DNA of 64,000 nt, taken from positions 18,210 to 82,209 of the forward strand of contig CANQIO010000005.1 in NCBI GenBank assembly GCA_947624065.1, in the 5' to 3' direction. The notes below the pieces were generated by a model. That model saw only the letters and a program-made list of their open reading frames with translations. It was not told where the DNA came from and did not search any database. Positions 53,269-61,153 of this stretch are shown piece after piece. The DNA is from an uncultured Oscillospiraceae bacterium. Its GTDB lineage: Bacteria; Bacillota; Clostridia; Oscillospirales; Oscillospiraceae. Position 1 is the stretch's first letter. Every line of letters starts with the position of its first letter. A program made the position numbers and the translations under genes.

Positions 53269-54408
53269 TTACAGGTCCCCGATCAGCCTTCCCTGGGCGT
53301 CAAAGGTATACGAGGCGCCGTCGATGGTATACGTCCCGTCCGTGTAGGCGACGCCGTACTTGCCGTCGTGCAGCGGGTTGAAGTAGTACCAGGAGCCGTT
53401 CACATTCTGCCAGCCGTCCATCACGCGGCCATAGTAGCCGTCATGCACTTCGCTGAAGTAGTACAGCCCGTCATAGGAGCTGCCGGTGGCGATCCACCGC
53501 AGGCCGGTCATCATCACGCCCGCATCGTCGAGGAAGAACCAATACTTCCCGTCCATGGCCCAGTCGTTGACGATCATACGGCCATAGTAGCCGTCAAGAG
53601 ACTTGTCGAAGTAATGCCAGACCCCGTTGACCTGGACCCAGCCGTCCATCAGACGGCCATAGGAGCCGTTGTTGTTGGGGTTGAAATAGTACCAGCCCTC
53701 CGTGAACTTCTGGAAGCCGGTGAGCATTTTCCCGTCAGAGCCCATGTAGTACCAGTACTTGCTGTCCCGCGCCCACTGGTCATGCACCAGCTTGCCGGCA
53801 TCGTCGAAGAAGTACCAGGCGGAGTCGATCCAATCCCAGCCCGTCACGGCCTTGCCGTTTTTGTAGTAGTACCGCTCGCCGTCCTCCTCGGTCCAGCTGC
53901 CCCCCCGGGAGGGAGCCTCGTCCGAATAATATGTATAGCAATACTGTACGCTCTTTACTTCCTCGGCGGACATCGTGCGTCCCCAATTGACGGAGTTCGA
54001 CCAGTTGCCCTCTGCAAGGACGATATAGTCGCTGTAGACCTCCAGCACGACCACCGAGTGGCCGCCCGAGCCGTAGCCGATCCCGTAGGAGAGCAGGTCG
54101 CCCACATGCAGATCCTCGATGGTGATGGGCGGCCGCTTGACCTTCTTCAGGGTCTGGCCGGGAAACGCAGCTTCCTGCAGCAGGGTGGCGAACCCAAAGC
54201 AGCCATACTCGGCGAGGCCGTTCTTGTCGATATAATAGGAGCTGCTGTCCCACGGCGCCCCGTCCGGATAGATCTCCTGGAGGGCGATCATACGCTCATA
54301 AGCCTCCTGCTCCGTGGTGAGGTCCGCGGACTCCTGAGCAAAGGCTGTCGCGGAGAGGGACAGGACCGTCAGCACGGCCAGGATCATGGAAATAAAACGC
54401 TTGAGCAT
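53269..54408 (-). CDS. Secreted protein with papain-like (NlpC/CHAP-like) domain and C-terminal cell-wall-binding repeats
   Basis: Signal peptide LKRFISMILAVLTVLSLSATAFA; EYGCFGFATLLQEAAF ... GGHSVVVLEVYSDYIVLAEGNW; many WYYF/YYY repeat units. Confidence 0.82.
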   Translation of the reverse strand: MLKRFISMILAVLTVLSLSATAFAQESADLTTEQEAYERMIALQEIYPDGAPWDSSSYYIDKNGLAEYGCFGFATLLQEAAFPGQTLKKVKRPPITIEDLHVGDLLSYGIGYGSGGHSVVVLEVYSDYIVLAEGNWSNSVNWGRTMSAEEVKSVQYCYTYYSDEAPSRGGSWTEEDGERYYYKNGKAVTGWDWIDSAWYFFDDAGKLVHDQWARDSKYWYYMGSDGKMLTGFQKFTEGWYYFNPNNNGSYGRLMDGWVQVNGVWHYFDKSLDGYYGRMIVNDWAMDGKYWFFLDDAGVMMTGLRWIATGSSYDGLYYFSEVHDGYYGRVMDGWQNVNGSWYYFNPLHDGKYGVAYTDGTYTIDGASYTFDAQGRLIGDL

Positions 54409-54758: not shown

Positions 54759-57700
54759 TCAAAGCCGGCTCTTCCTGCGGCGAACGGCCGCCACAGCCGT
54801 CAGGGCCAGCGCGCATCCCGCGGCCAAAGCCATCCACAGGGCGGGCATGTTCTCGTCCCCGGTCGCCGGGGCGGTGGGCTCGCCGGGCCGGCTGGGCTGC
54901 ACGGGACTGGCGGTGGGTCTCGGCGTCGCGCCGGGCTCAGGCGTCGCGCCGGGCTCAGGCGTCGTGCCGGGCTCAGGCGTCGTACCGGGCTCCGGTGTCG
55001 TGCCGGGCTCAGGCGTAGATCCGGGCTCAGGCGTAGATCCAGGCTCAGGCGTAGACTCGGGGTCAGGCGTGGAAACAGTTCCGGGGCCGCCGGGATTATA
55101 GCTCCTGTACGTATTGGTGAACGTGCTCTCACCGGTCTCGTCTATCAGCTCCGCTTCCAGGACGCCATCGCCCAGCGGGTCCGTCACACTGTATGTGACG
55201 GTATAGGCGTGGGTGTCGTAGGTCACGTTCGCGGCTCTTCCGGGCACCTCGGTGATCGTGATGGTATAGGTGCCGGGCATCGTAAATCCGATATCCGCAA
55301 ACGCAACGGTCCCATCAGCAGCGTTGGACGCGTTTGCCGGCAGCTGGACGCCCGCGGACGGCTGCGCCGTCATCGTGAACTGGAACGCATCGGCCTGCAG
55401 CGTGCGTCCGTTGAGGACCTTGGTCACGCTCGGAGCAGTCACGGTAGCGGTCTTCGGTTGATACGTATTGGTGAACGCGGCCGTGGACGTGTTCCTCTGT
55501 ATGATCGGCCCCACACTGTTATCAGATTTGGCGGTATATCCCGCCGCGGTCTCTTCCGATACGGTATACGCCGTGCCGGCGGGCAGAGGGATGCTGGCGG
55601 TCTGTCCATGCTTGAGGGTCAGCTTGCCGGTGCACTTGCCGTCGGCCGACTCAAGCGTCAGCGCCTGCGTCTCACCGTCCACAGTATAGGGTATCGAGCC
55701 AAGCTCAAAATAACCGGAATCGAGGTCTGCCGGCGGCGTTAAGGTGACGTCGAAAGTGAACTCCTTGTCCGCAAAGCCCTCCGGCCCATTCACCACCGTT
55801 TTGGTGATCTCCAGCCTCCCATAGAGGGAGGTATTCGCAAAGTACACCCAGTCATCCGCACCGCTGCTGATCGTGCCGAAACCATCCGCACCGATCGTTG
55901 TGTCCGATCTGCCCAGCATCCCGGACGCCGAGTAATCACGGGGGGATACCTCTTCCACCTTGTACTTGATGCCCGGGGCGATGCCGTAGATGGTGATGGC
56001 CTGCCCGGCCTTCAGGGTGAAAGTCTCGGACGTTCTGGTGCTGTCGCCGTCGTTGCCGGTCATCTTCAGCGTGCCGCGCGGCGGGGCCGCGACGCCCATA
56101 TCGTCATAGTAGAGGGCCCTGCGCCCCACATAGGCGTAGTTGTTATCGATCGTAACGCCGGCACCATGCCCCTCCGGCAGGGTCAGCGTCAAGGTGAACG
56201 TAAAGTCCTGTCTGGGCGCGATCAGCGTCGTGCCGTCGGTGTCATAGGCGATCTTGCCGATGCGCAGCCAGTCCTCATAGACGGTCATCGTGACCGCGTT
56301 GGACTTTACGCTCGTGCCGTCCCAGGCAACGGCGGCGCTGTTGGTATAGGTATGCTCCTCCAGGACGATGGGCGTGGAGACCTGGAACGTCAACTCCTTC
56401 TTAGTCTCAGTGGGAATACTCAGACTTTCCCATGTCACCTTGCCGCCGTAATACAGGCCGGGGTCCTGATCGGAGTCCTTGCCATCCTTGAGGTCGGTAA
56501 GCTTTCCGCCGTCGCTGATGGTCCCCTGGTGCACGCGCAGCCTGCGGTGTCCCGCCTCTCCGTTGGCGTCGGGGATCTCGTCTGTGACGGTGAACCCGCC
56601 CGCGGCGGTCACATCATAGTTATAGACGGTGAGGGTATACGTGACCGTCTCGCCGGAGCCCACATGCAGGCCCCCATCTTCATCCAGATCGTGGCCTTCC
56701 GATGCCTGCTTCTTCACCAGCATCACGCCAGTGGGGGCGTTGGTGAACTGCTCCGACGTCGGCTCTCTCGTCGCCGCGGTGATACTTCCGGTGGCACTGC
56801 CATCGGCGGCCACAGACGCACCGTTGATCTCCGTCAGCTTGAAGTCGACGCCGCCCTCGGCCGGCTTATAATCCTGCTCCTTCACGGTATACTTCGTGTC
56901 CGCCGGCAGGATGAAGGTGGCGGTCTGGTCGTTCTTGAGCGTCAGCGTGCCGGTGTAGGTCCTGCTATCGTCGCCGGTCAGTCCCGTGAGCGTCAGGGTC
57001 CTTGTCTCTCCGCCTTCGGGTGCACCGTTGCCGGTAACGGTGTACGAAACGGAGTGAGTTCCGTCCCCCTGGTTGAAGTATTCTTCCTCGTTGCCCGTGG
57101 TTCCCTCAATGTTCGCCGGCAGCGTGAACGTCACGTCGAACTGGAATTCCGCGCTGTCCCGCACCGCGTCGGCGGGGTCGTACTCACCATCAAACAGGTC
57201 GGTGACAGTCTTGCCGATGGTCAACTGGCCCAGGGTAGAGATGTACCACACGTCCACCACGCCATCGTCACCAATGCCGGTCCACTTGTAGGGGTCCCTG
57301 ACGTCGTCGGTGACGCTGCCGTTTTTCGCCGTGTCGTACTTATACCACTGCCAGCTGGTGAGACCGCCGCCGCTGATGCTGTCCACATTATCCGGGTCAA
57401 AGGCCACGGACAGCCCCGTGACCCCGAGGAAGTCGAGGAGTCCATCCATATTGAAGAAGGTCTCGCGCTTGACAATGTAGTATCCATCCGTGCCATTTTC
57501 AAACGGCGCGGCTTTGTACTCTGTAGGGACGCCCGTCTCTTCCTTTCTGGTCACGGTGGCGTCCACATGCTCGTGCGTCTGGCCCTTCTCGTCGGTGTAG
57601 TTGAAGGTCACGTAATAGGTGTAGTGGTCCGCCGGGGTGCTCCACAGGGCGGTCAGATAGATGGCGTACTCCGTATTCGTATCGCCGAATCCGGTGTTGT

Positions 57701-60303
57701 AAGCGTCCATGATGTTCCGCAGCTCCAGCAGGTCGGAGGGCTGGATGACGGGATACTGGCCGGAATCTGTAGTAGTCCTTGTCGTGACCCTGTCCGCAAT
57801 GGTGATCCTGCTATCACCGTCGTTATCTTCCCACTGATAGGGAACGCCCGTGCGGTCCGTCAGGACCCAGCCCTGGAAGCCGACCGCACGCTCGCCTTCC
57901 CCTTGCGTGATCGTAGGCGTGGCACTGCTGACGGAGATGCTGTCGCTGGCGTCGCCGCCGCTGTAGCTGCCGTCGCCGGCGGCAATGGCATAGTACTGTC
58001 CGCCGTTATTGTCTATGTATCTGCCGTCTCTTACTGTATAGTTGGGCATACCGGAAACGTCCCCTGTGATGCCCTCATTCAATTTGCCTGCCGCTCCGTA
58101 GTTCACACCATCCTGGTAGACGACGATATACTGCTCCGGATAGGCGCGGACCTCCAGCAGATAGGCGTTCATGGTCTCAGTCCGGGCACCCGCGTTGGTA
58201 TTACCGTAGGGCGACACCAATCTGACATAGTACCACTCTTCGCCATCTTCTACGTACGGCCCGGTAACCTCCAATTCCGCGCTGTCGCCGCCCGAGGAAC
58301 TTTGGACCGCGCCAGTTTTATCGACCAGCCGTACCGTTGGATTCGCCGCCGTTCCGCCACGGCTTTCAGTCCCACCGGCAAAGGTGAAGCCATCCTGGAG
58401 TTGGAAGCGGACGTTGGCACTATAGTGTGTGCTGTCTGTCCATGTATACAGAAAGCCCGCATCACCGTATTCAGTCGATTCCTCGTATTGCCCCCATTGA
58501 TCGCCGGTGCAAAACGTATGGCCCGCCTGCACAGGGGTCCAGGTACCGCTGCCTTCATTATTCGCCCAGACTTCGACCGTCACGCCGTACAGGCCGGAAA
58601 TGATCAGCTCCTTATAAGTACTCTCATTGGTATTCATGGAGCCGCCGGTGATCCAGATGTCCCGGGTGGCGCCGGTGACGGTGATCGTGTATGAGGGGTC
58701 GCCGTTGTTCCAAGTCGCTTCGATCGTGACAACCGCGCCGGAGGGCAGCCGCGTGCTTGCTGAAGCCGGTGTAGCCGTGGTGCTCACAAAGGGGACCGTT
58801 ATAGTCGCGCCGTTGATCTCCAGCGTGCGCAGCTCCGCGTCATCAATGGGGTTCCCGTTCCCATCATTATAGGTATCCTTCACCGTGAACGTCCAGGTGA
58901 GGGTCGCCCCCACGTCTGGATTATCGAGATTTCCCGTCACAGTCCAACTGCCACCCGAAACATCGACCTTGTTGCTGGTGGGCGTGCCGCCTATCACATA
59001 GGACTGCCACGCCTCGGCATGGAAGGTGATGGTCGTCTTTTTCGTCAGCACCACCCGGACGGTCTGGTTCGCGCTCACCTTTTCGGTAGAGCTGCCCACC
59101 AGATAGGTGCCGGTGAGGGTATAGCTCTCGGGGCTGCCACCGCCCGAAACAGGCGCGATGGTGTTGGTATCCCCGTTATAGACATACCGCGGCTCCGCGC
59201 CCAGGGGGTAATTGCCGTAGGACGATTCGTTGGGGTATTTCTCGTTGCCGGGATAACTGCTGTCAAAACCATCCGTATTGTCGATATACACCCGGCCGAT
59301 GTAGCCGGCGGGAATGGTCACGTCCACGCTGGCCCAGCCGTCGACCGTAATTGCGGACGGGTCCGCGCCGAAGACAGTGTTCTTATAGGTATCGGTTTCA
59401 TTTGTTTCGTCCACATAGACCTCATAGGTGATAGCATACTCATTGGGTACATAGCGCACCTCGAAGGGAGGGTGGTCGTATTGACCGACACTCTTTGTCA
59501 ACACCACCGTGGTCAGGCGGCCCTGGGCGTCGATGGAGGTGAAATGGACATACGTTTTGTCTTTCACCTGATACATGCCCAAATGATAGAGGATGGTGCC
59601 GTTGAGCCGGATGGAGCTGATCCTGTAGCCCGTGATCTGGGGGTAGGTATTCAGGGTGTCCTCAACACCTGCCCCGTCCTTCAGCAGGTCGCCGCCGTTA
59701 GGGCCGTCCCAGGAATCACTCGTTACAGTATGGCCGTTGTCCTCGCCGCGAGCTATCAAATCGTCGAAGCTACTATATGTGGTCGGGTCGCCCGACTCGT
59801 TGGCGCCGTAGATGGAAAAGCTGAAGTATCCGGGAGCGACCTTAGCATCATTCAATTCTCCGATGGGCATGATGCCGGGGTCGTCCCCGAGGGGCAGATC
59901 GCCCTGCGCTTCGTCCGCCAGCGACCGCAGATAGGCCAGGGCCTCCGCCTCGCTGTCCTCGCCGTAAAAGGCTATCATGCCCTCCCCGAAGGGCGTCCCC
60001 CCGTCGGGCTCCGCCGTTGCTTCCGGCTCCGCCGTGGGCTCCGCTGTCTCGGTGGGCGCGGGAGATTCGCTGGGCGCGGGGGTCATCTGGCCCTCGAACC
60101 AGGGGCCGTCCTCGGCGCCCGGCCACCCTTGGGGCGCATCCTGCTCCGGCTCCGCCGTGGGCTCTGCCCCCTGCAAAACAGCATCGCCGGACGGGTCCCC
60201 GCCATCTTCAGGCTGAGACTCTTCCGGCTGTGTATCCAATTCCTGCGTCCCGGGCGCGCTGCTCTCTTCCGGAGCCGCGGCGGTATCAGTTTCTAAAATA
60301 CCC
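54759..60303 (-). CDS. Giant surface protein body (isopeptide pilin-like/DUF11-type modules, sorting-signal-like C-terminus), out of frame with its signal peptide
   Basis: Open frame from the G7 tract to 54759; repeated ITKTV...YTV modules; C-terminus TAPATGDENMPALWMALAAGCALALTAVAAVRRRKSRL. Confidence 0.85.
54924..55067 (-). repeat. 18-bp tandem repeat, 8 copies, encoding (TPEPG[S/T/A])n stalk
   Basis: CGTCGCGCCGGGCTCAGG-type units in register. Confidence 0.9.
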
Positions 60304-60474
60304 CCCCGGCTGATCTTCTGGGGTGCTGCCTTCCGCGGCGGAGAGTCCCGCGTCCTCCCCGGCAGACATGAGTCTGCCCGTGCCAGCGGTTCCTCTGACC
60401 GTGAGGCCGGCCTGGCAGACCAGCATCACCAACGTGAGCACAAGGGCCAAGACCCTGATCGTTCTTCTCCTCAT
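60286..60474 (-). CDS. Signal-peptide fragment of the giant surface protein, terminated by a frameshift at the G7 tract
   Basis: MRRRTIRVLALVLTLVMLVCQAGLTVRG...STPEDQPGGYFRN*; AAGGGAGAAAGCAGCC RBS; continues in +1 frame as GILETDTAAAPEESSAPGTQELDTQPEE. Confidence 0.75.
   Translation of the reverse strand: MRRRTIRVLALVLTLVMLVCQAGLTVRGTAGTGRLMSAGEDAGLSAAEGSTPEDQPGGYFRN
60301..60307 (-). repeat. Homopolymer G7 (C7 on + strand) at the signal peptide/body junction
   Basis: CCGGGGGGGTATTTTAG on the reverse strand. Confidence 0.95.
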
Positions 60475-60743
60475 GGCTGCTTTCTCCCTTCGGATCACAG
60501 AGCGGCTCCCGCCGCCGTATATATGCCAGACACATCAATTGGGGCCGCAATTGCATTGGTCCCATATCGATAGCAATTATAGTGTATATACTACTACCGA
60601 ATTGTTCAAAATGCAAGTGTTTTCCTGGGAAAATTATTTCAACTGACCTGTTCCATGCCATATAACACCCCATTCCAGGTCATGCCGGGCATATGTGTCA
60701 GCATCAGCGGAAAACCAGCAGGCAATGTTCTGTCATAAAAAGA

Positions 60744-60770
60744 AGGCTATGAGAGAACCTCTCATAGCCT
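60744..60770. promoter_or_regulatory. Perfect inverted repeat between the giant surface gene and the HigA-like gene
   Basis: AGGCTATGAGAG-AAC-CTCTCATAGCCT, flanked by AAAAAG and TTTT. Confidence 0.75.
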
Positions 60771-60850
60771 ATCGTTTTGCAAAAAGTGAAAGCGGTATGG
60801 ACATTGCAGTAGTATACCCGCTTGACATATACATGCGCAGGAGGATACCA

Positions 60851-61153
60851 ATGCCTGATATGATACCTACCCCCAAGATGAGCGAGATCCTTTGGAAGGA
60901 GTTCATGGAGCCGCTGGGCATATCGGCTTATAAGCTAGCCCAGGCCATCCATGTTCCCACCTCCCGCATCCAGGATATTCTTCACGACCGCAGGAAGATC
61001 ACGGCCGACACATCCCTGCGGCTGGCAAAGTATTTTGGCGTCTCAGACCGTTATTTTTTGGATATGCAGAACGACATCGACCTCCGGAAACTGAAAACAA
61101 GCATGGCAAAGGATATCCGGGACATCCATCCGTTTCAGTCCGCATCCATATAA
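60851..61153 (+). CDS. HigA-family XRE-type antitoxin/transcriptional regulator
   Basis: PTPKMSEILWKEFMEPLGISAYKLAQAIHVPTSRIQDILHDRRKITADTSLRLAKYFGVSDRYFLDMQNDIDLR; GGAGG RBS. Confidence 0.92.
   Translation: MPDMIPTPKMSEILWKEFMEPLGISAYKLAQAIHVPTSRIQDILHDRRKITADTSLRLAKYFGVSDRYFLDMQNDIDLRKLKTSMAKDIRDIHPFQSASI

Follow-up and report, generated by a model that had tools for sequence, protein, structure and literature searches.

Organization of the split surface-protein gene

The analysed window is a stretch of 64,000 nucleotides from an uncultured Oscillospiraceae bacterium, whose draft genome comprises 1.92 Mb in 81 contigs and is 75% complete. On its minus strand, a 259-bp interval (60240-60498) contains a homopolymer of seven guanines (G7), which lies exactly where a long coding region changes its frame. 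The elements of this region are as follows:

60484..60489, minus strand: ribosome-binding site AGGGAG, recognized from the sequence and aligning with the ribosome site of in-frame homologs
60286..60474, minus strand: signal-peptide ORF of 62 aa, with a stop four codons past the G7; its counterpart is the signal peptide of L040 and L090-L092, homologs that are in frame
60301..60307, minus strand: G7 homopolymer, the presumed switch, with CCAGAAGATCAGCC on its 5' side and TATTTT on its 3' side; the flanks score +13.3 bits against the motif of the genus
54759..60300, minus strand: body of the surface protein, in the +1 frame relative to the signal peptide and with zero internal stops; proteins from at least six species of the genus are homologous to most of it

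The short ORF downstream of AGGGAG translates as MRRRTIRVLALVLTLVMLVCQAGLTVRG...PEDQPGGYFRN and then terminates. From 60425 to its stop at 54759, the body frame is uninterrupted (1888 codons, counted from the upstream stop); it extends over about 5.5 kb, intact through a sortase-type C-terminus; the other two frames of this region contain 67 and 71 stops. A scan of the 5' part of the body frame for ATG, GTG and TTG detected none ahead of the TTG at 60239, so the body alone would lack both a good start and an export signal. Codon-position GC documents the frame change at the tract: 5' of it the values are 0.61/0.57/0.76 with the third-position maximum in the signal-peptide frame, and 3' of it they are 0.57/0.50/0.77 with the maximum in the body frame.

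One-unit changes of the G-run shift the body into or out of frame of an otherwise intact gene. Signal peptide and body are in frame at run lengths of 6, 9 and 12, nine being the length that tracts of the genus most often have, and the G7 of the assembly, the one genome from which the tract length is known for this species, corresponds to the OFF state with both parts in different frames. The original prediction, which had described a signal peptide with its ribosome-binding site stopped four codons after the run, a 5.5-kb body open in the +1 frame and a continuous protein after the loss of one G or the gain of two, thus agrees with the ORF and GC analyses. It had also named inactivating mutations elsewhere in the gene as evidence against itself. 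A check for such lesions found none in the signal peptide, the anchor or the body with its more than 1,800 codons; the body is free of decay.

Homologs identify a single gene

The genus relatives (35 genomes) are uncultured Oscillospiraceae, which probably originate from rabbit-gut metagenomes. Homologs of the body exhibit about 30-45% identity within the genus. In eight of them (L024, L025, L028, L040, L089-L092), which belong to the genomes G034, G014 (four copies), G032, G008 and G012, signal peptide and body form a single ORF that lacks poly-G. The ribosome site and the signal peptide of the window align with those of L040 and L090-L092 from G032 and G014 (AAGGGAGAAAGCA..ATGAGGAGAA; GLTVR). 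The in-frame homologs and this alignment indicate that the window holds one gene, which is split at the tract.

The homolog of G021 (L026) provides a tract at the matching place with a different length. It has a ribosome site, a signal peptide (MARRSTARSLAGALCALTMLLQFGMTAHS...) and a G10 run instead of the G7 of the window, after which the body continues in the other frame, offset just as in the window. All other homologs with a readable 5' end are devoid of a tract, and switching is therefore not a trait common to the whole family. The copy of G009 has lost its signal peptide and that of G025 begins at a contig end.

When the body itself was searched against reference genomes, nothing matched; a profile of the conserved N-terminal domain, used on them instead, did retrieve matches. 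Within the genus this domain has 12 matches in nine of the 35 genomes. One homolog of the surface protein (L259) is located in a metagenome-assembled genome labelled Atopobiaceae, hence in another phylum, and reflects either gene transfer or a misbinned contig. The neighborhood is retained in G001, which keeps the divergent helix-turn-helix (HTH) gene on the upstream side and the choline-binding gene on the downstream side and lacks the surface-protein gene between them. The surface-protein gene thus comes and goes. In the window, the divergent HTH gene is located at 60695-61153 on the plus strand (compare L030). A symmetrical, terminator-like hairpin (60744-60770) separates the surface gene from this divergent HTH neighbor.

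Domain structure of the surface protein

The body comprises the following features:

58971..59912, minus strand: conserved N-terminal domain of about 314 aa, supported by the matches in nine of 35 genomes, by alignments and by an AlphaFold model
55461..55820, minus strand: best of three DUF7601 domains (PF24547, E 5e-36 over the protein)
55107..55430, minus strand: FctA / streptococcal pilin isopeptide-linkage domain (PF12892, E 1e-19; TIGR03786, E 6e-15)
54922..55070, minus strand: 18-bp tandem repeats in 8.3 copies, a PEPG-rich wall-spanning stalk according to repeat analysis
54762..54872, minus strand: C-terminal sortase-type sorting signal in the translation, with a PATGD motif, a membrane segment and RRRKSRL

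The AlphaFold model of the N-terminal domain is of moderate confidence (pLDDT 79), and Foldseek returned weak matches to streptococcal pilins, PitB among them (E 8e-4, TM 0.24). Whole units of the 18-bp stalk repeat keep the frame, hence their number can change the length of the protein and not its frame. With a signal peptide, a sorting signal and an isopeptide pilin domain all present, the protein belongs to the sortase-anchored pilin-like class. The pilin isopeptide and DUF7601 domains, the repeat stalk and the PATGD signal indicate a wall-anchored fibrillar protein, which would be displayed and have an adhesive role when ON. A search for a pilus operon detected neither an adjacent pilus-specific sortase nor other pilins at the locus in this 75% complete genome; the one sortase found in it (PF04203) is encoded on another contig (C8).

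Position and flanks of the G7 run

A G7 run as such is not rare: base composition alone gives a probability of 0.13 for its occurrence in 259 bp (order-1 shuffles). The whole genome of the window contains 36 G7 runs and a search for runs of at least eight Gs found none, which sets the expectation at about 0.002 per 259 bp. Decisive are the position of the G7 at the frame switch and its flanks. With a position matrix derived from the tracts of the relatives, the flanks of the window tract score +13.3 bits, compared with a training median of 8.9. This scoring covered 30 of the 36 G7 runs, the window tract included; the 29 others reached about -1.0 bits or less, so that the window tract alone matches. 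Part of the training set had been fetched with G9TA and its TA columns are therefore biased. An unbiased training set removes this bias, and the window tract again ranked first (9.1 versus 2.4), as it also did on the upstream flank alone.

The window tract thus has the flanks of the genus, namely an A-rich stretch from -11 to -7, C or T at -1 and TA after the run, whereas its length lies outside the range of 9 to 12. As a G7 in a 5' coding region it reaches the Campylobacter cut-off of seven and stays below the eight shown to switch there. A second G7 of the window (53900-53906), located in the choline-binding gene, is in frame and devoid of the flank motif.

Poly-G tracts across the genus and order

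Plain G9 runs are present in 27 of the 35 genomes of the genus. The motif GGGGGGGGGTA, a G9 with TA directly behind it, was matched 152 times in 23 of them, compared with 15 for the reversed control. At the level of the order our own tally amounts to about 270 G9-TA matches versus 47 for the control (396 genomes, 94 with a match). In an unbiased sample, for which a single place was taken from each genome and two neighbours were added, TA is next after 15 of 25 tracts of nine or more Gs and T after 21 of 25. The upstream flanks of the tracts are A-rich from -11 to -7 and carry C or T at -1. These common flanks (A-rich, C/T, G9-10, TA) also surround intragenic tracts; that TA is merely the start of a -10 element was accordingly rejected as a full account, since intragenic tracts carry it too.

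Tracts of G9 to G12 are located in promoter spacers and at the 5' ends of surface, glycan and RiPP-like genes. Two spacer tracts lie within TTGACA-17 bp-TATTAT (L015) and TTGACA-17 bp-TACCAT (L192), and poly-G between -35-like and -10-like hexamers is seen in L015 (minus strand, near 2285), L192 (3470-3510, plus strand), L041, L215, L220 and L233. These spacer tracts, which are conserved between species with G9 or G10, are probable transcriptional phase-variation promoters. The window tract was considered as such a spacer as well (G7, then TATTTT); this was dismissed, as there is no -35-like hexamer at 17 bp and a promoter scan was empty there. The 5' coding tracts precede genes for acyltransferases, glycosyltransferases, FkbM methyltransferases and a pyruvyl transferase as well as genes for capsule, choline-binding, leucine-rich repeat (LRR) and radical-SAM proteins.

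An automatic classification of 34 intragenic tracts, in which some start codons are uncertain, resulted in 15 ON and 19 OFF states. Among the latter, 15 exceed an ON length by one G and four by two. The window, G021 and both Bifidobacterium breve loci discussed below are likewise OFF with one G above an ON length.

RiPP-like precursors with the leader MSEEKKIQRGGVTPEQ...GG comprise 69-79 aa at G9 and are reduced to a 14-aa stub at G10. One orthologous precursor documents both states, with G10 and 14 aa in G014 and G9 and 72 aa in G033, its frame being otherwise intact. Several such genes with Cys-rich cores are arranged in tandem with G9 to G12 in the leader (L182, minus strand, tracts at about 2560, 2788 and 3060; L198, 3400-4150, plus strand; L191, L173, L175 and L176), and they look like phase-variable peptide precursors. 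Three tandem short peptides (MKEKYESPEVEIVEI..GG..DIIFAS) in L083 / L159 (1480-1950) have a G9 each, and at least two of them are in frame.

Some poly-G runs were treated with caution. Much of the poly-G in G031, G005 and G028 is located at contig ends or beside N gaps; it was set aside as likely sequencing artefacts that could mislead the survey. Read on the opposite strand, the tracts of L177, L185, L218 and L231 are C9 stretches that encode Pro-Pro-Pro, and they may not act as switches. Loss of mismatch repair was tested as a cause and is unsupported, because every one of the 35 genus genomes contains MutS.

Comparison with known systems

Switches based on poly-G slippage are textbook knowledge in Campylobacter, Neisseria and Helicobacter. 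The closest parallel in our comparison is found in the sortase-dependent pilus loci bbr_0113 (G11/G12) and bbr_1889 (G10) of B. breve UCC2003, which are switched by slippage of an intragenic G-tract (PMC9187656). Two ORFs fuse there when the run loses one G (-1+3n), with G9 as an ON length at bbr_1889; length variation and enrichment in vivo have been measured, and the authors mention G-tracts in promoter spacers as well (PMC9187656). The common traits are a gut commensal, a poly-G run within a sortase-anchored pilus-type gene and an ON length that is one G shorter. However, B. breve belongs to the Actinomycetota, its tracts comprise 10-12 Gs compared with seven here, and no pilus operon was identified at the window locus. 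Given the measurements in B. breve, a device of the kind proposed for the window locus is already known.

The Campylobacter phasome resembles the genus in its genome-wide intragenic and promoter G-tracts, in the cut-off of at least seven and in surface and glycan genes that occur ON or OFF. PhasomeIt includes tracts of seven Gs and longer, but switching has been shown only from eight Gs upwards, and short poly-G tracts may mutate below 1e-5 (PMC6321876). In contrast to the genus, we found no shared flank motif described there, and the genome of the window has G7 runs only. In porA of Neisseria meningitidis, a promoter poly-G tract alters expression (PMC3639595). This gene is comparable with the several genus tracts between TTGACA-like and TAnnnT hexamers at 17 bp (L015, L192) and differs from the intragenic tract of the window by its location in the promoter spacer. 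Streptococcal-type pilins (FctA/Spy0128, PitB and ancillary proteins) share the FctA isopeptide domain, DUF7601 and the PATGD signal, with a weak match of the N-terminal fold to PitB, whereas the window protein is much larger, has an undescribed N-terminal domain and lies outside a recognised pilus operon.

A probable contingency switch caught in the OFF state

The flank signature is common to dozens of longer G-runs in the relatives, which makes an on/off switch caught OFF the most likely explanation. We therefore regard the locus as a probable poly-G contingency (phase-variation) locus of a sortase-anchored pilin-like protein of about 1.9 kaa that was assembled OFF. Slipped-strand mispairing at the G-run would alter the length of the tract in the cells, and each change would join or separate signal peptide and body. 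At G7 the product would be the 62-aa signal-peptide fragment alone, with nothing displayed, and at 6, 9 or 12 Gs it would be the full secreted and wall-anchored protein. The flanks presumably have a function. The phase-variation candidate of the original prediction gains support from the in-frame homologs, the G10 of L026, the flanks of the genus and the ON and OFF relatives; the assembly error, fixed pseudogene and programmed frameshift that it had listed as alternatives are all retained at lower weight.

Its length counts against the switch, because G7 is below the norm of 9-10 in the genus and its own genome lacks any run of at least eight. Genus-wide MutS should restrain slippage in a 7-mer, so a tract that switches slowly or may be stuck OFF is a real alternative. 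The same observations would fit a tract that once served as a contingency switch, has since shortened to G7 and is now effectively fixed OFF, its gene being a young pseudogene in this species, and the dispensability of the gene is apparent from G001 with its flanking genes and no body between them. We nevertheless consider such a relic unlikely, as more than 1,800 codons of the body, the anchor and the signal peptide are all without other lesions and single-base slippage is still plausible at G7.

Slippage during translation or transcription would offer another route to the full-length protein, since both ribosomes and RNA polymerase tend to slip on G-runs. A programmed frameshift or slippage of the polymerase could then yield some full-length protein from G7 without any genetic switch, in line with the identical shift required in the window (G7) and G021 (G10) and with the 15 of 19 OFF tracts that are one G above an ON length. 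This is very improbable, for the majority of homologs lack a tract, are in frame and do not need a frameshift, tract lengths differ among related genes of which many are already in frame, and a ribosomal frameshift is meaningless for the many tracts in promoter spacers. A true run length that differs from the assembled one, with the gene simply ON, has somewhat more in its favor: the genome is a draft, the related records are short-read metagenome assemblies, poly-G artefacts do occur at contig ends and N gaps in three relatives, and published G-tract lengths are unreliable (PMC9187656). Such an error is still improbable, because seven is short for an artefact of this kind, the tract is not near a contig end or gap, and the flank signature of the genus is unexplained by error; tract and flanks remain even if the length is wrong.

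Beyond the single locus, the candidate contingency switch of the window could be a short member of a large phase-variation system in Oscillospirales. We put this forward tentatively: poly-G tracts with specific flanks (A-rich, 6 nt, C/T, G9-10, TA) would be located in promoter spacers and genes, and the sharing of these flanks suggests a common process that creates, keeps or tunes them rather than an origin of the tracts one by one.

Implications for gut Oscillospirales

Oscillospirales are a dominant order of gut bacteria, and studies of their variable surface genes stress DNA inversions. Our literature search, with most subscription journals outside its scope, found no report of poly-G slippage switches in Oscillospirales and no description of the common flank signature and its spread in this order. 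The common flanks pose a testable question, namely how such tracts arise and persist. If the genus-wide pattern is true, metagenome assemblies would record a random ON or OFF state, with the consequence that such genes are called pseudogenes or missed, and many uncultured gut species would vary stochastically in their surface proteins, glycans and RiPP-like peptides.
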